Origin: Phocaeicola massiliensis B84634 = Timone 84634 = DSM 17679 = JCM 13223
GTDB taxonomy: Bacteria > Bacteroidota > Bacteroidia > Bacteroidales > Bacteroidaceae
DNA length: 64,000 nucleotides
NCBI RefSeq assembly: GCF_000382445.1
Contig: NZ_KB905472.1
Coordinates: forward strand, 760,444-824,443
Direction: 5' to 3'
Shown: one piece after another, positions 27,210 to 38,678 of the stretch
Layout: every line of letters begins with the position of its first letter
Numbering within the stretch: position 1 is the stretch's first letter
Notes under the pieces: generated by a model
Databases searched by the model: none
What the model saw: the letters and a program-made list of their open reading frames with translations, nothing else
Told to the model about the DNA's origin: nothing
Program-made: the position numbers and the translations under genes

Positions 27210-27261
27210 CCTTTATGTTCAATGTTCCAAGCTCTTTCCTCGAAAGCTTCAGGATGTGAAA

Positions 27262-27405
27262 GTGTATAGGCAGGTCTTCTGACTTGTTTCCGCTATAAGC
27301 ACCTTCCCGGAAATGCTTTCCAGTGGTTAATGGAGTTTGCTTATGCGTTTTGTGAAACATACAGCAGCGGGACTGTTCAGGATTCTCACCTGATTCCCTT
27401 TTAAT
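27262..27405 (-). ncRNA. Cobalamin riboswitch
   Basis: The minus strand contains the conserved B12-element blocks in order: GGTGAGAATCCTGAAC, AGTCCCGCTGCTGTA, ACCACTGGAAAGCATTTCC-GGGAAGG, and GTCAGAAGACCTGCC. These are the core of the AdoCbl/MeCbl riboswitch that lowers expression when cobalamin is present. A complete promoter stands upstream (27445-27474). No cobalamin transport or synthesis gene follows on this strand within the window; the next gene is convergent. Confidence 0.93.
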
Positions 27406-27444
27406 CATTTATCTTTGACTAAAGATAAACAAACCAATACATTG

Positions 27445-27474
27445 CAAATATACTGCTTATCTTTAGAAAAACAA
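27445..27474 (-). promoter_or_regulatory. Promoter of the cobalamin riboswitch transcript
   Basis: TTG (27474-27472), 19 bp, TATATTTG (27452-27445) on the minus strand, predicting RNA start near 27438. An inverted repeat TTATCTTT/AAAGATAA (27409-27428) lies just inside the transcript. Confidence 0.65.
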
Positions 27475-30579: not shown

Positions 30580-31629
30580 TTACATTGTAGGTATGGTAAA
30601 CTCACCGGCAACCGGAATACTCATTTGATGCCGTATCTCACTTTCATTTTTGCCATGACCCAAAAGAAACATTAGTTTTGTAAGAACGGACTCTACTGTA
30701 CTGTCATATCCACTGATAACTCCGGCATCGAGCAAATGAAGTCCGGTTTCATATCTTCCCATCTCTACACTTCCTGTAGAACATTGGGAAATATTGATAA
30801 TGACGATACCACGGTCGGTAGCTTCTTTCAGTAAGTCGATGAACCAAGGTTTTTGTGGAGCATTACCCGAACCGTATGTTTTAAGCACCACTGCCCGCAA
30901 TCCGGGGGTATGAAGTATGTTTCGTATCATATTTTCCTGAATACCGGGAAAGAGTGTCAGGATGACGACATTGGTGTCGTACAGATAGTGGGGCTTTAGA
31001 GCCACATTGGGATTTGCTTTATGAATACGGTCATATTCATACTTGATATGAATACCGGCTGTAGCAAGTGATGGATAATTATATGAACGGAAAGCATTAA
31101 AGTTTTCTGCATTAATTTTTGTCGTTCTGTTGCCGCGAAGCAAGTGGTTTTCAAAGAAGATACACACTTCGGGAACGATGGCTGTACCATCGGGGTGTTT
31201 GGCAGCGGCAATTTCAATGGAAGTGATAAGATTTTCTTTGCCGTCGGTACGCAACATGCCAATGGGAAGCTGGCTACCTGTCAAGATGACCGGCTTACTT
31301 AAATTTTCCAACATGAAACTAAGGGCAGAAGCGGTATATGCCATGGTGTCTGTTCCGTGAAGAATGACAAAACCGTCAAAATTATCATAATTGTAAGCGA
31401 TGATTTTTACCAGTTTTGCCCATAAAGAAGGTTCCATGTCGGAAGAATCGATGGGAGGATTAAACTGATAGGAAGAAATGCGGTAATTGAAACGTTTTAA
31501 CTCCGGAACATTCTCTTGAAGTTGATCAAAATTGAAGGCTTCTAAAGCACCTGTTTCGGGATTCTCAATCATACCGATTGTACCACCTGTATATATTAGC
31601 AAAACGGAAGGATATTCACTCTTTATCAT
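30580..31629 (-). CDS. ansA: Type I L-asparaginase
   Basis: A 349-residue asparaginase converting asparagine to aspartate and ammonia. Motif 1 LLIYTGGTIGMIENP carries the nucleophilic Thr; motif 2 FVILHGTDTMAYTASALSFM carries the second Thr and Asp. No signal peptide, so the cytoplasmic type I enzyme. The longest frame starts at 31707, but the promoter (TTTG at 31683-31686, 20 bp, TATCTTTG at 31655-31662) lies inside that extension, so ATG 31629 is correct. Monocistronic, downstream of trpA on the same strand. Confidence 0.93.
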   Translation of the reverse strand: MIKSEYPSVLLIYTGGTIGMIENPETGALEAFNFDQLQENVPELKRFNYRISSYQFNPPIDSSDMEPSLWAKLVKIIAYNYDNFDGFVILHGTDTMAYTASALSFMLENLSKPVILTGSQLPIGMLRTDGKENLITSIEIAAAKHPDGTAIVPEVCIFFENHLLRGNRTTKINAENFNAFRSYNYPSLATAGIHIKYEYDRIHKANPNVALKPHYLYDTNVVILTLFPGIQENMIRNILHTPGLRAVVLKTYGSGNAPQKPWFIDLLKEATDRGIVIINISQCSTGSVEMGRYETGLHLLDAGVISGYDSTVESVLTKLMFLLGHGKNESEIRHQMSIPVAGEFTIPTM

Positions 31630-31654
31630 AAGTATATCTGATTGGATTATGGCA

Positions 31655-31753: not shown

Positions 31754-32533
31754 CTACTCGTTGTTTAATGCTTTGAGCAACTTGTCGGTTGCTGCTTCAG
31801 CATCTCCTTTTTCATCACCAAGTAGCGTAACGAACTTGCTTCCGATTATTGCTCCTGCTGCATTGGCAGAGGCTGTTTCGAATGTCTGTTTATTTGATAT
31901 TCCGAAACCTATCATTCGAGGGTTACGCAACTTCATAGCTGCAATGCGTTGGAAATATGCCTGCTTCTGTGTACCGAAATCTTTCTGTACACCGGTAATG
32001 GCTGCCGAAGATACCATATAGATAAATCCATCTGTATGTTCGTCAATCAGCCGGATGCGTTCTTCACTTGTTTCAGGTGTAATCAGCATAATCACTTTTA
32101 TATCATATTTTTCTGCAATGGGGCGATACTCATTCATGTAATCTTTGAAAGGAAGGTCGGGAATGATAACTCCGTCGATACCAACCTCTTTGCAGGTACG
32201 GCAGAAGTTTTCGAAGCCGAATTGCATGATAGGGTTTAAATATCCCATTAAAATAAGAGGAATCTGTACTTTGTGGCGAATATCCTTCAGTTGCGTAAAA
32301 AGGAGTTGTAGTGTCATGCCGTTTTTCAATGCCTGTGTTGCTGCATGTTGGATAACGGGGCCGTCTGCCATCGGGTCACTGAAAGGAATACCTATTTCAA
32401 TCATATCGATTCCTTTACTTGCCAGTGTGTTGATAACGTTTGCAGTACCGTCTGAGGTAGGATAGCCGGCACAAAAATAAATGGATAAAATATCTTTTTG
32501 TTTTGTGCTGAATAAATTATTAATTCTGTTCAT
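31754..32533 (-). CDS. trpA: Tryptophan synthase alpha subunit
   Basis: A 259-residue TIM barrel that cleaves indole-3-glycerol phosphate to indole, which tunnels to TrpB. Visible: [20 protein letters not shown] (catalytic Glu and Asp) and GVIIPDLPF. Loop region [10 protein letters not shown] resembles the usual phosphate-binding area, and [10 protein letters not shown] completes it. Last gene of the trp operon; its ATG overlaps the trpF stop (ATGA). Confidence 0.96.
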
Positions 32534-33147
32534 TCTATGTTAGATTTGATTTGTTTGATAAATGTGTTTAATAGCGTTGTATCCTTTTTGCCCGGAGAGA
32601 TTTCGAATCCGCTATTGAGATCGATGCCTGCCCATGCAGGATGGTGGAATTCTTTCAGAGAATGCAGACTGTCGGGCTTTAGTCCGCCGCTTAGCAGAAA
32701 AGGAGTGGAACCATGATACGCCGTAAGCACTTGCCAATCGAATGTTTTTCCCGAACCGCCATAACCGGTACAGGCTGTGTCGAACAGGAAGTAGTCGCAG
32801 ACATTTTCATAGCAGGCAGTAGATTTCAAATCACTCATTGAGGCAATAGGGAATACTTTGATAACCCCCAGTCCGGCACGTTTCAGGTTGAGACATTGTT
32901 CGGAAGTTTCTGTTCCGTGCAGTTGGATATAATGAAGGTCGAATTCTTCCGCTTTTTGTAGGATGGCGGGTGTTACTTCATTGACAAATACGCCTACACG
33001 CTTGCATCGCTCCGGCAGGTAAGCCGGACGGAGAGAGACATGACGGCAGGAATGGGGGAAAAAGATAAATCCCATCCAGTCCGGACCGATCTGTTCTACG
33101 GCGCGAATGTTGTCGGGATCGCGCATGCCACATACTTTTACAATCAT
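32530..33147 (-). CDS. trpF: Phosphoribosylanthranilate isomerase
   Basis: A 205-residue TIM barrel that isomerises phosphoribosylanthranilate. The N-terminus [13 protein letters not shown] carries the catalytic Cys; the C-terminal catalytic Asp lies in [20 protein letters not shown]; the phosphate site is [11 protein letters not shown] and [19 protein letters not shown] separate gene, not fused to trpC. Overlaps trpA by 4 nt. Confidence 0.95.
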
Positions 33148-33163
33148 TTTGTCAATATGATTT

Positions 33164-33943
33164 TTATAACTTACTGATAAACTCTTTCAAAGCATTTCCC
33201 GGTTGAGGTGTCTTCATGAAATTCTCTCCAATCAAGAAACCCCGAAAGCCGGCTGCACGTAATTGTCGGACAGTCTGTGGGCTGGAAATGCCACTTTCGG
33301 AAACAAGTAACATTTCTTTAGGTAACTTCTCTGCCAGTCGGAAGGAGTTTTCCACGTCTGTATGGAAAGTTCCCAGATTGCGGTTGTTCACTCCCACCAT
33401 ATCAATGTTGTCTTCTATGTATTCCAATTCTTGTTCACTATGAATTTCGAGAAGTACTTCCAATTTCAGTTCGTGCGCTTTGGCCGCTAACATACTGCAT
33501 TGCTCTTTTCTGAGTGCTGCAGCAATCAGAAGAACTGCATCTGCCCCTACGATGCAGGCTTGGTAAAGTTGATATTCGTCAATGATGAAGTCTTTACGTA
33601 GAATGGGAAGGCTCACTTGGGGACGTGCGGCACGGATGTCTTTTAGGTTGCCGCCAAAAAAATTCTCGTCTGTCAGGATGGAGAGAACGGAAGCTCCTGC
33701 CATTTCATAGGCAGGAGGAATGATATCAGCCTGTGCGTTTTCTTTTATCCATCCTTTGGATGGTGAACGGCGTTTAAACTCGGCAATGATGCCGGAAGGT
33801 GATGCCGAAAGGCTGGCGCGCATGCTCCTTCTCGGCATAGGCTCATTGCAGTTGTTTATCAGCAACTCTTGGCTGATAGCGGCTTTTTGTTGTTCGATTT
33901 CTAACCGTTTGTGGGCGATGATTTCATCTAATATATCTGTCAT
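33164..33943 (-). CDS. trpC: Indole-3-glycerol phosphate synthase
   Basis: A 259-residue IGPS. Seen: IIAEFKRRSPSKGWI with catalytic Lys, ILTDENFFGG, ILRKDFIIDEYQL (catalytic Lys), GVNNRNLGTF and LVSESGIS. The longer frame begins at 33970 inside the trpD stop region; ATG 33943 (MTDILDEIIAHKRLE) matches family N-termini. It starts 24 nt after trpD and ends 16 nt before trpF. Confidence 0.95.
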   Translation of the reverse strand: MTDILDEIIAHKRLEIEQQKAAISQELLINNCNEPMPRRSMRASLSASPSGIIAEFKRRSPSKGWIKENAQADIIPPAYEMAGASVLSILTDENFFGGNLKDIRAARPQVSLPILRKDFIIDEYQLYQACIVGADAVLLIAAALRKEQCSMLAAKAHELKLEVLLEIHSEQELEYIEDNIDMVGVNNRNLGTFHTDVENSFRLAEKLPKEMLLVSESGISSPQTVRQLRAAGFRGFLIGENFMKTPQPGNALKEFISKL

Positions 33944-33966
33944 AGCTTTACTTTTATACCGGGTTG

Positions 33967-34962
33967 TCAACTGTTTAATTCGATAAAACGTTTTAATGTT
34001 TTCAGAGCCTTGCCGCTTTCCAATGATTCACGGGCTATGGCGACACATTCTTCTATTGGTTTGGCCGGTTCCATAGCTTGGATGGCAAAAGAGGCATTAA
34101 TCAACACACAGTCGGTCTGTGCTTTGGTTGCACGGTTCTGCAATACGTTGTCGAAGATGCAGGCAGCCTCCTGAGGGGTTGTTCCGCCATAGAGCTCTTC
34201 TTGGCGGGCGAGAGAAAAGCCGAGTTCTGATGGCTTGTAAATAGTTTCGTAACGGTTGGTCATTACTTTAAACTCATCCGTAAGGGAGATTTCATCGTAT
34301 CCGTCCAGATTATTGACTACGGCAAAACCGATGCCAAGCTTTTGGAATACATTGGTGTAAAGGCGCATTTGAGGAAGATCTGCCACACCCAATAATTGGT
34401 AGGAAGGTAGGCAAGGGTTGACCAATGGTCCGAGAAGATTGAAGATAGTCCGCACTTGTAGGGCTTTGCGTACCGGACCGACGCTTTTCATGGCGGGATT
34501 GAACAGCTGGGCGTGCATATAAACCATGCCACACTCTTCCATACTGCGAGTAAGTATCGATGGGTCATTGGTAAATTTCACTCCGTGTTGCTCCATTACG
34601 TTGCTTGCTCCGCTTATTGAGGTTGCACCGTAATTTCCATGTTTTGCCACATGATATCCGGCACCGGCAACAATAAGGCAAGCACAAGTAGATATATTGA
34701 ATGTATTCTTTCCGTCTCCCCCCGTACCTACAATGTCAATAGGTTTGTAGGCAGAAAAGTCTATGGGTACTCGTGTTGTAAGCAGTGCTTCACGAAAACC
34801 GATAAGTTCTTCTACTTTGACGCCACGCATCTGGAATACTGTGAGCAGAGCAGCTATTTGTGAGTCATTATACCTGCCTTTGGTGATATTGAGTAACAAG
34901 TTTTTTGCTTCTTCACGATTCAGTTCTTCATGGTTGAAGAGGCGTGATAATATAGCTTTCAT
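33967..34962 (-). CDS. trpD: Anthranilate phosphoribosyltransferase
   Basis: A 331-residue enzyme joining PRPP and anthranilate. Signature glycine loop VGTGGDGKNTFNIST, then KHGNYGATSISGASNVMEQHG, and GPLVNPCLP. Complete length for the family. Fourth gene of the operon, 18 nt after trpG. Confidence 0.96.
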   Translation of the reverse strand: MKAILSRLFNHEELNREEAKNLLLNITKGRYNDSQIAALLTVFQMRGVKVEELIGFREALLTTRVPIDFSAYKPIDIVGTGGDGKNTFNISTCACLIVAGAGYHVAKHGNYGATSISGASNVMEQHGVKFTNDPSILTRSMEECGMVYMHAQLFNPAMKSVGPVRKALQVRTIFNLLGPLVNPCLPSYQLLGVADLPQMRLYTNVFQKLGIGFAVVNNLDGYDEISLTDEFKVMTNRYETIYKPSELGFSLARQEELYGGTTPQEAACIFDNVLQNRATKAQTDCVLINASFAIQAMEPAKPIEECVAIARESLESGKALKTLKRFIELNS

Positions 34963-34980
34963 ATCGTTTGAATTGTTGTT

Positions 34981-35544
34981 TTATGCGTTTAGGAAATTAG
35001 CAATTATTGTTTTTCCATTCGGTGTCAGCACAGATTCGGGATGGAATTGGATTCCATGTACATCATATTTTTTATGTTTGAGTGCCATGATATATCCTTC
35101 CCGGCTCATAGCTGTTACTTCCAAACAGTCGGGGAATTCGTCTGTATCTACCACCCACGAGTGATATCTTCCGACGGGTATTTCCTGTGGCAACCCTCTA
35201 AATATATAATCGTCTTTTTCTATGGTTATCGGTGTTTGTACTCCGTGAAAAACTTCACTCAGGTTGATCAGTTTGGCTCCGAATACCTCTCCGATGGCCT
35301 GCTCTCCCAGACATACACCGAGAATAGGTTTTTTCCCTGTATAAGTCCGGATAACATCCGGCAGTAGTCCGGCTTCAGAGGGGATTCCCGGTCCCGGTGA
35401 AAGAATTATTTTATCGAATACTTTTAATTCTTCCAGTTTAAAGGAATCATTGCGCATGACGGTGACTTCTGCACCGAGTTCTTTTACCAAATGACTCAGG
35501 TTGTAAGTGAATGAGTCGTAGTTGTCTATAATTACTATTTTCAT
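34981..35544 (-). CDS. trpG: Anthranilate synthase component II (glutamine amidotransferase)
   Basis: A 187-residue class I glutaminase that supplies ammonia to TrpE. The nucleophile Cys is in PILGVCLGEQAIGEVFG (the usual His after LG is Glu here), the oxyanion region is SPGPGIPSEAG, and the His-Glu pair is VHGIQFHPES. A PabA role shared with folate synthesis is possible. Starts 14 nt after trpE. Confidence 0.94.
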   Translation of the reverse strand: MKIVIIDNYDSFTYNLSHLVKELGAEVTVMRNDSFKLEELKVFDKIILSPGPGIPSEAGLLPDVIRTYTGKKPILGVCLGEQAIGEVFGAKLINLSEVFHGVQTPITIEKDDYIFRGLPQEIPVGRYHSWVVDTDEFPDCLEVTAMSREGYIMALKHKKYDVHGIQFHPESVLTPNGKTIIANFLNA

Positions 35545-35558
35545 AATAGAGTGTTTTT

Positions 35559-36959
35559 TTACATTTGTTCTGCCAGGAGAATTGCTTTTTTAAGTGCTCC
35601 CAGCTTATTGTTTACTTCTTGTAGTTCGTATTCTTCATTACTTTTTGCTACAATACCACCTCCGGCTTGAAACCAAAGTTCGTTGTTGCGACTGACGAAG
35701 GTGCGGATGGTGATTGCCTGGTTGAGTGTGCCGTTTAGTCCGATGAAACCGATACAGCCACCGTAGGCTCCACGGCTGTGAGGTTCGTATTGGCTGATGA
35801 GTTGCATTGCCTTTACTTTAGGAGCCCCGCTCAGGGTACCGGCCGGGAAAGTGTCGATGAATGTTTTGATAGAGTTAGCATTTGGGTTTAATTCACCACT
35901 GACTCGGCTTACTAAATGGATGACGTGACTATAATATTGAGGTTCTTTATAGAATTCTACTTGCACATCTTTACAGTTACGGCTCAGGTCGTTGCGTGCC
36001 AGATCTACCAGCATCACGTGTTCGGCATTTTCTTTCGGGTCAGCAAGTAAGGCAGTTGTGAGTTCGTCATCTGTTTGTTTATTTCCGCTGCGGCGGGTTG
36101 TTCCTGCAATGGGATCGATGGTAGCACGCCCCCCTTCTATTTTGCAATGTGTTTCGGGGGATGAACCGAAGATACGAAATCCGCCAAAGTCGAAGTAAAA
36201 TAAATAAGGTGAAGGATTGATGCTCCGCAGCGCACGATAGAGTTTGAAGTCATCACCTTCATAACGTTGGATGAATCGGCGTGAGAGAACGATTTGGAAT
36301 ACATCCCCGCGCATACAGTGGATTATACCTTTTCGGATATTGGCTTTATGCTCCTCATCGGTCAGCGTGCTCGTTGTTTCGCCTACAGCATGAAAATCAT
36401 AGGTAGTGTAGTTGCGGTTATGGATAGCTTTTTCTACATAGTCGAGATGGCTTTCTTCATTATCCTGAAGCATTTCGAGCAGAAGCATTTCATTGCGGAA
36501 GTCATTGAAGACAATCAGATACTTATATAAGATATAGAGCATTTCGGGAGCGTCATTTTTGGGGTCGCAACTGTCTTTTACATTAATGTGCTCAAAGTAA
36601 CGTACTGCATTGAAAGTGGTGTATCCATACAGACCGCAATAATGATTATATTCTCCGCGTACTTTAAAATGGTTCAGGAAATCGGTTATGGCATGATCTA
36701 CTTTGTAATCGGCAGTAATGGTATGCTCTTCTGTGCTGCCGTCAGGGTAAGTGGCTGTGGCGACTCCGTGGTTAATGCCGATGCTGGCAACAGGGTTTAG
36801 TCCGATAAAGGAACGGTTGTTTTCACTTCCGTGGTAATCAGAGCTCTCCATCAGTGCACTTTGAGGGAAGATGTCCCGTACTTTCAGATAAGTACTTACC
36901 GGAGTATGAAGGTCTCCCAACATAGTTTTGTGCTTAGTTGTATAGATAAATGTTTTCAT
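35559..36959 (-). CDS. trpE: Anthranilate synthase component I
   Basis: A 466-residue chorismate-utilising enzyme making anthranilate. The N-terminal domain carries the Trp-feedback element [18 protein letters not shown] in variant form; the C-terminal catalytic core shows [29 protein letters not shown] and [15 protein letters not shown], ending [16 protein letters not shown]. Its ATG overlaps the trpB stop (ATGA at 36956-36959). Confidence 0.95.
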
Positions 36960-38152
36960 AATTTCGTTTCTTCTGGTTTGTTATTCAAATAAGTTTCTGT
37001 ATCCTTATCTCCTCGTCCTGAGACAGTAAGTACCACTATATCTTCGGGACGGAACTGCATTTTATTGAGTGCACCCAATGCATGAGCCGATTCCAATGCC
37101 GGAATAATACCTTCCAAACGGGTTAGCTCGAATGCAGCGCGTATAGCTTCATCATCATTGATGGACAGAACAATGGCCCGCTTTTGTCGGGCAAGATTGG
37201 CATGCATGGGGCCAATACCCGGATAATCCAGTCCGGCAGAGATAGAATAAGGTTCCTCTATCTGTCCGTCCTCGTTTTGGATGACCAATGTTTTTGCTCC
37301 GTGGATGATTCCCATCTTTCCCAGTTGGATAGTGGCTGCCGACATTCCTGTTTCTATACCTTTTCCACCGGCTTCGGCCAATACGATTTGTACACGTTCG
37401 TCATCGATATAGTGGAAAATAGTACCGGCAGCATTACTTCCCCCACCCACACAAGCCATTAGATAATCGGGATACTCACGTCCTTCATGCTCTTTCAGTT
37501 GTTTTCTGATTTCTTCACTGATGACAGATTGCAGTCTTGCCACCATGTCGGGATAAGGATGAGGCCCTACCGTAGAGCCGATTACATAATACGTATCGGC
37601 TGGATGACAGCACCAGTCTCGAATCGCTTCATTGGTGGCGTCTTTCAGTGTCATGTTTCCCGATGTGACAGGGCGGACTTCAGCCCCTAGCATCTTCATT
37701 TTCTCTACATTGACATGTTGGCGTTCTACATCAGTTTTACCCATATAAATAATGCATTGCATATTCATCAGTGCACAAACGGTTGCGGTTGCCACTCCAT
37801 GCTGACCGGCTCCGGTCTCGGCAATGATACGACTTTTTCCCATACGTTTGGCAAGCAATACTTGCCCGATGGCATTGTTTATTTTGTGTGCTCCTGTATG
37901 ATTCAGGTCTTCGCGTTTCAGATAGATTTTACAGCCGTACTTTGCGCTTAACCGACGGGCAAGATAGAGTGGAGAAGGACGTCCTACATAGTCATGCAAC
38001 AAGTCATTAAATTCTTGTTTGAAGTCTTCGCTATCCAATACATTTAAATAAGCGTTTTTTAGTTCATCTACACAGCGATGAAGAATTTCTGGGATATATG
38101 CTCCTCCGAACTCGCCGTAATAACCTTCATTGTTTACTTGATAAGTTTTCAT
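36956..38152 (-). CDS. trpB: Tryptophan synthase beta subunit
   Basis: A 398-residue PLP enzyme condensing indole and serine. The PLP Lys lies in [14 protein letters not shown]; the glycine-rich phosphate loop is [26 protein letters not shown] is the substrate loop. First structural gene of the trp operon, the reverse of the enteric order. A frame extends to 38185, but ATG 38152 ([20 protein letters not shown]) matches TrpB N-termini and leaves room for the attenuator terminator at 38191-38220. Confidence 0.97.
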
Positions 38153-38190: not shown

Positions 38191-38220
38191 AAAAAAGGCC
38201 TGTCGTAAGTACGACAGACC
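38191..38220 (-). terminator. trp operon attenuator terminator
   Basis: GGTCTGTCGTA (38220-38210) pairs with TACGACAGGCC (38207-38197 and following) around a two-base loop, then TTTTTT. It lies 40 bp before trpB and is downstream of the leader peptide, as expected of an attenuator. Confidence 0.9.
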
Positions 38221-38297
38221 TTTTCTGAATATCCTTTTAGAATGTTAAGTATATACACATGGACTGGTTCTCTTACGACTTATTCAGTTGCAAGAGA
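38202..38297 (-). promoter_or_regulatory. trp attenuation elements: 1:2 stem and 2:3 antiterminator
   Basis: Region 1 TCTCTTGC (38297-38290) pairs with region 2 GTAAGAGA (38276-38269). Region 2 GTCGTAAG (38279-38272) can instead pair perfectly with CTTACGAC (38209-38202), which is the loop and 3' arm of the terminator. The two Trp codons lie directly before region 1, so a stalled ribosome would mask region 1 and free region 2 to break the terminator. Confidence 0.85.
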
Positions 38298-38332
38298 CGC
38301 CACCAACATGTATTTACTAATATTCTTTTCAT
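38273..38332 (-). CDS. trpL: trp leader peptide
   Basis: A 19-codon ORF reading MKRILVNTCWWRLLQLNKS, with tandem Trp codons TGG TGG at 38305-38300 and stop at 38273. It starts about 17 nt after the predicted RNA start, with a purine-rich AACAGAAAAAG before the ATG. Its stop codon lies inside region 2 of the attenuator. Adjacent Trp codons, position and alternative stems together make it the sensor of charged tRNA-Trp. Confidence 0.88.
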   Translation of the reverse strand: MKRILVNTCWWRLLQLNKS

Positions 38333-38355
38333 CTTTTTCTGTTTCTATTTCGGTG

Positions 38356-38386
38356 CAAATGTAATCGTTTTGATTTTATCTCCAAA
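38356..38386 (-). promoter_or_regulatory. trp operon promoter
   Basis: A textbook Bacteroides promoter on the minus strand: TTTG (38386-38383), 19 bp, TACATTTG (38363-38356). Confidence 0.85.
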
Positions 38387-38405
38387 GAAAAACTTACTTT
38401 TTTTT

Positions 38406-38678
38406 CTATTTATTGGTAACTTCGTTCAATTTGCCTTTCACAGCTTCGGCCTGTTGACTCATCTTTTCCACCACTTCTCCGCTTACTTTCTCTGCTTTAT
38501 GCTTAGCGCGATGTGCAAAGTCATACGCATCTTCTTCCAAGTCCTGAATGGTGTCATAAATGTCTCTTCTCAGTTTGCGTCCTCTGTTGCTGTGGGCGAA
38601 ACAACTCAATGCACTGCCGACCAACGCACCTAGTGCCAGTCCTGCGAAAAATTTTCCATTATTCATAATCTTATTCAT
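38406..38678 (-). CDS. YtxH-domain protein
   Basis: A 90-residue protein with an N-terminal Gly/Ala-rich membrane segment (FFAGLALGALVGSALSCFA), the YtxH-type NRGRKLRRDI and a charged helical tail. Proteins of this kind are small stress-associated membrane or envelope proteins. A start at 38666 is also possible. Upstream of, and transcribed in the same direction as, the trp leader, but separated by the trp promoter. Confidence 0.75.
   Translation of the reverse strand: MNKIMNNGKFFAGLALGALVGSALSCFAHSNRGRKLRRDIYDTIQDLEEDAYDFAHRAKHKAEKVSGEVVEKMSQQAEAVKGKLNEVTNK

Follow-up and report, generated by a model that had tools for sequence, protein, structure and literature searches.

A tryptophan leader RNA of Phocaeicola massiliensis as a putative attenuator variant with an antiterminator directed at the terminator loop and 3' arm

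The trpL attenuator of E. coli combines a Trp-rich leader peptide, a 1:2 hairpin and a 3:4 intrinsic terminator, with one strand deciding the outcome. In textbook attenuators of this type it is the first terminator arm that the antiterminator occupies, so that the decision falls ahead of synthesis of the second arm. A tryptophan leader of Bacteroidetes has been catalogued as Rfam family RF01692 (Bacteroid-trp, 'Bacteroidete tryptophan peptide leader RNA'). Weinberg et al. 2010 (PMC2864571) list it in their Table 1, and Rochat et al. 2019 (PMC6414381), who also give TAnnTTTG as a Bacteroidetes promoter sequence, describe it as similar to attenuation in E. coli. The transcriptome of the species treated in the latter study is described as giving strong indications of attenuation by leader peptides ahead of amino-acid operons (PMC9723704). 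The transcript map of B. thetaiotaomicron mentions attenuation-like leader ORFs in general, and its main text holds neither 'trp' nor 'tryptophan' (PMC7366714). Naville and Gautheret 2010 stated that to their knowledge no leader-peptide system had been shown beyond Proteobacteria and Actinobacteria (PMC2965389). In a search that covered the open-licence part of PMC, no experiment addressing trp attenuation in Bacteroides was found.

The leader analyzed here is located on the minus strand of a 64,000-nt window (the whole stretch of DNA that was studied) from P. massiliensis, upstream of a complete trpBEGDCFA operon (Table 1). Its closest TrpB relative among the best 80 of 321 loci is that of Phocaeicola faecalis (96 %). 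The leader matches RF01692 over the full length of the model, at 79.9 bits against a cut-off of 49, and its position upstream of trp genes also agrees with membership of this family. Because it belongs to a family described since 2010 and already compared in the literature with the E. coli system, attenuation in Bacteroidales is not in itself news. The first-pass annotation of this DNA had noted that trp attenuation of this form is classically described in proteobacteria and some actinobacteria; the class is however already catalogued for Bacteroidetes. Its remark that no experimental report from Bacteroides was known agrees with the literature search. Comparison with relatives, which share the Trp codons, the terminator and the complementary segments, gives strong support to its proposal of ribosome-mediated trp attenuation, and such a catalogued mechanism is very likely for this leader; the antiterminator topology that the annotation drew was however wrong (see below).

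The other parts named in that annotation were all recovered on the minus strand: a promoter, a 19-codon ORF with tandem Trp codons, a 1:2 stem right after these codons and a terminator ahead of trpB. The inner 1:2 hairpin (38297-38290 with 38276-38269, plus 38288-38286 with 38280-38278) begins 2 nt past W11, and its first strand could be covered by a ribosome stalled on the Trp codons. The intrinsic terminator has a 16-bp stem and ends in six U (38196-38191). The 5' UTR of the leader is predicted to be 17 nt long. Folding of the leader RNA gave -51.3 kcal/mol against -25.8 kcal/mol for shuffled sequences (z -7.3), with none of 200 shuffles as stable. Sub-threshold matches over the leader to PyrR, at 30.7 bits with a cut-off of 54, and to Thr_leader, at 20.6 and 18.8 bits with a cut-off of 55, were rejected and are most likely caused by the shape of a hairpin followed by U residues.

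Table 1 Features of the trp leader and operon in the window
Feature	Position	Strand	Basis or remark
-33 element TTTG, Bacteroidetes promoter	38383..38386	-	sequence
-7 element TACATTTG	38356..38363	-	sequence; 19 nt spacer after TTTG
Leader ORF MKRILVNTCWWRLLQLNKS*, 19 codons + stop	38273..38332	-	sequence
Tandem Trp codons W10 W11 (UGGUGG), presumed stall site	38300..38305	-	sequence
Segment 1, partner of segment 2	38286..38297	-	minimum-free-energy fold
Segment 2	38269..38280	-	minimum-free-energy fold, relatives, covariation
Segment 2 core GUCGUAAG, proposed antiterminator strand	38279-38272	-	contains leader stop codon
Terminator 5' arm (segment 3)	38211..38226	-	fold; relatives
Terminator loop ACUU	38207..38210	-	CUU complementary to segment 2; loop nucleotides covary with segment 2
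Terminator 3' arm (segment 4), six U at end	38191..38206	-	fold; relatives
CUUACGAC, segment 2 partner in proposed antiterminator	38202..38209	-	3 loop nt + 5 nt of 3' arm
Rfam RF01692 Bacteroid-trp match	38213..38352	-	79.9 bits, gathering 49, model 1-131 of 131
trpB, first operon gene	36956..38149	-	TIGR00263, 577.6 bits
trpE, trpG, trpD, trpC, trpF, trpA	31754..36959	-	NCBIfam matches

The first-pass annotation had further described an 8-bp perfect '2:3 antiterminator'. The complementarity is indeed perfect, but the partner of segment 2 is not segment 3. The core GUCGUAAG pairs over 8 bp with CUUACGAC, which is made up of loop nucleotides (38207-38209) and the descending arm (38202-38206), thus of loop and segment 4. 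The region after the Trp codons forms no helix longer than 4 bp with the terminator 5' arm in the window, so the segment 3 antiterminator of the E. coli type was not found here. GUCGU of segment 2 is a copy of the segment 3 sequence, not its complement, and as read from the sequence segments 2 and 3 are competitors for segment 4. It is likely that the antiterminator is 2:(loop+4) and not the textbook 2:3, a reading supported by covariation among relatives and by the contrast with other leaders in the same genome. Our main reading, to which we give a probability of roughly 0.7, is that the leader would act as a ribosome-mediated transcription attenuator of trpBEGDCFA, as a member of RF01692 and with a 2:(loop+4) antiterminator. 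It is termed a variant because the 5' arm antiterminator was looked for and was absent. The leader has the Trp-rich peptide, the 1:2 hairpin, the intrinsic 3:4 terminator and the deciding strand in common with E. coli trpL. It differs in three respects: the proposed partner of segment 2 is the loop plus 3' arm in place of the terminator 5' arm, segment 2 contains the stop codon of the leader, and trpB instead of trpE opens the operon. The RF01692 structure line pairs the 1:2 region alone, ends within the terminator 5' arm and contains no antiterminator; the one proposed here would supply it.

The exact pair of 8-mers, at a spacing of 50-75 nt, occurs at this single place in the genome, which is hit on either strand since the pattern is identical to its reverse complement. 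Nevertheless, the argument from the 8-bp match in one sequence is too weak alone, since dinucleotide-shuffled versions of the window's post-Trp region reached at least 8 Watson-Crick pairs with loop plus 3' arm in 87 of 5000 cases. The match to the 3' arm is moreover partly a consequence of the terminator hairpin, because segment 2 resembles the 5' arm. The loop provides the clean test, because the terminator leaves it unpaired. Covariation was analyzed in 144 leaders: 25 of 187 sequences were lost at anchoring, the other 162 were merged to 145 unique ones, and L082 was lost. Position 4 belongs to the loop in 78 % of the terminators; its combinations with segment 2 were A-U in 92, G-C in 40, G.U in 5 and a mismatch in 7 leaders (n=144). 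Over positions 0-6, 392 of 464 loop cells pair with segment 2. When partners were shuffled between species, the observed pairing was reached in 0 of 2000 shuffles at position 4 and likewise at position 6, a signal that is inflated by relatedness. Loop position 5 is barely variable and showed no covariation (278 of 2000 shuffles reached the observed value).

Relatedness was addressed in two further comparisons. A tree built from the TrpB of 114 rows shows six changes in segment 2 and four in the loop; both loop changes on well-supported branches agree with segment 2 (2 of 2), too few for significance. In a set of 25 divergent representatives, with segment 2 windows less than 60 % alike and the terminator of L191 anchored by hand, the score of segment 2 with its own loop and 3' arm was 408, compared to 340 +/- 13 for permuted partners, and none of 5000 permutations reached 408. 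The terminator 5' arm of the same 25 representatives gave no own-versus-foreign signal (1629 of 5000 permutations). Individual helices show compensation, namely UUGUGAG:CUCACAA in L202, CCGUGAGU:ACUUACGG in L207 and UCGUGAA:UUCGCGA in L206. In L205 the helix GUGAGG:CCUCAC is kept on an unrelated stem, with five of the six partner bases in the loop (CUCAC with GUGAG). The letters of GUCGUAAG are kept where the leader reading frame differs, ending in KS* in most relatives and in KSRKG in L036 and others, which indicates that the RNA and not the peptide is under selection.

Counts over larger sets of relatives point in the same direction. The loci came from at most 30 each of the 42 phylum, 38 genus, 43 family and 38 order genomes with a match, plus 19 others. 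A short ORF with WW was present in 153 of 158 trpB upstream regions. The duplex of segment 2 with loop and 3' arm was the stronger one in 142 of the 145 unique relatives. After removal, by set rules, of 5 regions without a WW ORF and 2 without a terminator from 145 unique trpB upstream regions, 138 leaders were left, and their best helix involved loop and 3' arm in 128, the 5' arm in 7 and a stretch spanning both in 3. Loop bases were included in 100 of those 128 leaders and the segment 2 UCG core in 97. In the remaining leaders, above all those of Bacteroides, another stretch pairs, for example AAGGGAGC with the base of the 3' arm. A second set was picked by TrpB similarity (the best 80 of 321 loci, minus 3 cut short and 10 failing strict detection) and consisted of 67 leaders. 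All 67 have Trp codons and a terminator, as well as at least 6 bp between segment 2 and loop plus 3' arm, with loop bases included in 46. Their Trp run counts two codons in 23 and three codons in 44, and the stop codon within segment 2 has an offset of 24 nt past the Trp run in 59. The promoter TTTG-N17-21-TAnnTTTG precedes the leader in 58 of the 67, and TAnnTTTG alone was seen in the other 9.

RF01692 matches at an E-value of 0.001 or better were present in at least 38 of 60 genomes of the genus, at least 43 of 151 of the family, at least 38 of 393 of the order and at least 42 of 395 of the phylum, all lower bounds because of strict filters. Among the 22 Rfam-negative genomes of the genus, 12 had their trpB locus among 30 listed loci, and all 12 carry Trp codons, a terminator and complementarity to loop and 3' arm (at least 8 bp in 11, and 6 bp in one, L283). 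The RF01692 search as run thus misses relatives. The Trp codons, the terminator and the complementary segments recur in Bacteroidales and in Flavobacteriaceae-type relatives, and the leader itself and the covariation of the terminator loop with segment 2 are likewise shown by comparison.

A textbook attenuator, in which segment 2 pairs with the terminator 5' arm on starvation (2:3) while its match to the loop is incidental, is the best of the alternatives and is itself unlikely. It is contradicted in the window by the 5' arm helix of at most 4 bp, and among relatives by the lack of an own-versus-foreign signal in 5' arm pairing and by the covariation of loop bases with segment 2. On the other hand, a 5' arm helix of 6 bp or more with segment 2 is also available in 24 of the 67 TrpB-picked leaders, mostly through CGACAG in Bacteroides. 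Among 19 further divergent RF01692 loci, loop plus 3' arm was stronger in 14 and the 5' arm in 5: the pairing with the 5' arm is clear in L193, L197 and L198, a change of antiterminator topology within one Rfam family, and narrowly ahead in L194 and L196 (-6.3 versus -5.5), where the pairing of GUGAGA runs on from the 5' arm into the loop. In L085 and L201 a different stretch, UGCUGAA, pairs with loop and 3' arm, and L078 fits neither topology. Leaders of the Bacteroides type (L093, L099, L166) carry CGACAGUCGUAAG, of which the first half can pair with the 5' arm and the second half with the 3' arm; these may be intermediate between the two topologies.

The ilvD and his leaders of the P. massiliensis genome resemble the trp leader in having a short leader followed by a terminator upstream of the gene, but unlike it they have a putative 5' arm antiterminator, of 11 bp for ilvD (L239, leader MNVTTLNNLAVLHIIRFVVITPGE, read by eye) and 9 bp for his (L216, upstream of hisG, leader MVRTATHHHHFPNE). 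Relatives of the ilvD leader have the stronger duplex with the 5' arm in 11 of 13 cases, 3 of 16 loci being without a usable terminator, a behaviour that speaks for the textbook topology as well. The his relatives are mixed by duplex energy (5' arm stronger in 8 of 13; 2 of 15 loci without a usable terminator). Leader ORFs with a run of His codons were found ahead of 13 of 17 hisG loci, and the set rule flagged an ORF with an Ile/Leu/Val run ahead of 3 of 17 ilvD loci. Run through the same code, E. coli trp came out as 5' arm (CGGGC, -10.9 versus -4.9 kcal/mol), as did E. coli thr (9 bp with the 5' arm, 5 bp with loop plus 3' arm). Because these controls and the exceptions come out as 5' arm, the topology found for the trp leader is not forced by the code, and the phylum holds both types.

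For the 2:(loop+4) reading the following sequence of events is envisaged. In the presence of charged tRNA-Trp, the ribosome at the stop codon would cover segment 2, or the 1:2 hairpin would shut segment 2 in. The 3:4 terminator would then form in Trp-replete cells, and transcription would end after about 160 nt. In the absence of charged tRNA-Trp, we infer that the ribosome would stall on Trp10-Trp11 and hide segment 1. The freed segment 2 could catch the emerging terminator loop and zip into the 3' arm ahead of the 5' arm. With the 3' arm held by segment 2, the polymerase would pass the U-tract and read through into the operon.

Folding calculations indicate under what circumstances such a switch could work. 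In the full-length RNA 3:4 is stronger than 2:4 in every state, and the model of loop capture consequently needs timing. The calculations describe the equilibrium at each RNA length, not kinetics, with assumed textbook values for the hybrid length and the ribosome edge. With a ribosome over W11, P(2:4) was 0.99-1.00 when CUUACGAC(A) was exposed; it fell to 0.95 with one more base out, to 0.58 with two, and to 0.04 when the exposed RNA reached four bases past the helix. When the polymerase is at the sixth U, with a 9-nt hybrid hidden, CUUACGACAG is exposed, which falls inside the range of lengths that favours 2:4; in this state the window leader with a stalled ribosome gave P(2:4) 0.95 and P(3:4) 0.05. 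With the ribosome at the stop codon or absent, P(2:4) of the window leader was 0.00 throughout. A similarly narrow span of transcription has been described for the Guanidine-IV riboswitch, in which a kissing loop impedes the closing of the full terminator stem; that system differs in being a ligand-driven aptamer, with no leader peptide or ribosome involved (PMC11611296).

The same calculation was applied by a fixed rule to the 144 leaders. With a stalled ribosome P(2:4) exceeded 0.5 in 95 of them, in 10 if loop bases were barred from pairing and in none if segment 2 was covered. The other 49 showed no switch in this fixed-position calculation. Many of these are from Bacteroides, including leaders with ACC or ACCAA loops, which may be mixed or textbook in type since some of them can pair CGACAG with the 5' arm (6 bp). 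In 14 of the 144 leaders (12 trpE-first loci of the Flavobacteriaceae type, L075 and L080) 2:4 prevails with no ribosome on the leader at all; there the 1:2 hairpin as folded would be insufficient, and the task would fall to a ribosome at the stop codon.

It could also be supposed that segment 2 and the loop form a pseudoknot that does not block termination and instead tunes its efficiency or protects the short RNA, control being exerted by 1:2 and the position of the ribosome. Comparative data reveal a pairing and not its effect, and the lower terminator stem and a segment 2:loop helix could geometrically coexist. However, if 3:4 stayed unblocked with segment 1 masked there would be no antitermination state, and the leader would be pointless as a Trp switch. 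This explanation is ranked below the textbook 2:3 helix and is likewise improbable. That segment 2 and the upper stem of the terminator are alike as protein or nuclease sites and not by pairing would agree with their unusual sequence conservation among relatives, but is highly improbable given that complementarity is kept despite changes of letters, the unpaired loop included. Least credible is the view that the leader is a mere remnant with no regulatory function in this strain, which is opposed by the intactness of all parts here and in relatives, including every one of the 12 Rfam-negative genomes of the genus that were examined.

The 2:(loop+4) reading has wider implications. We lean, with little more than even confidence, to the view that trp leaders of Bacteroidota use a distinct capture of the terminator loop, in which antiterminator and terminator compete for segment 4 during synthesis, and that both topologies occur in the phylum. 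If so, the same operon is found with both topologies in one phylum, and the switch between them can be traced. An antiterminator that captures loop and second arm must win a race within the last few nucleotides, and would offer a clear kinetic test of how terminators are outrun. The leader is also a candidate Trp-responsive part for reporters in gut Bacteroidales.

Several features of the surroundings were observed as well. A gene for type I asparaginase (NCBIfam; 30580-31632, minus strand) follows trpA on the same strand after a gap of roughly 50-120 nt, and is possibly cotranscribed with the trp operon. A 90-aa ORF (38406-38678, minus strand) stops 19 nt short of the trp -33 element, on its upstream side. 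A 124-aa ORF on the plus strand (38259-38633), antisense to the leader and without a Pfam match, is probably spurious. One relative (G425 C83) has trpB split into two reading frames while the leader is kept. The P. massiliensis genome carries a second TrpB-like gene outside the operon (C1:2203947-2204993; 133.4 bits, below the trpB cut-off), which we take to be of the TrpB2 type, and many relatives have such a second gene too. Elsewhere in the window a cobalamin riboswitch was detected (27252-27453, minus strand, 112.2 bits).
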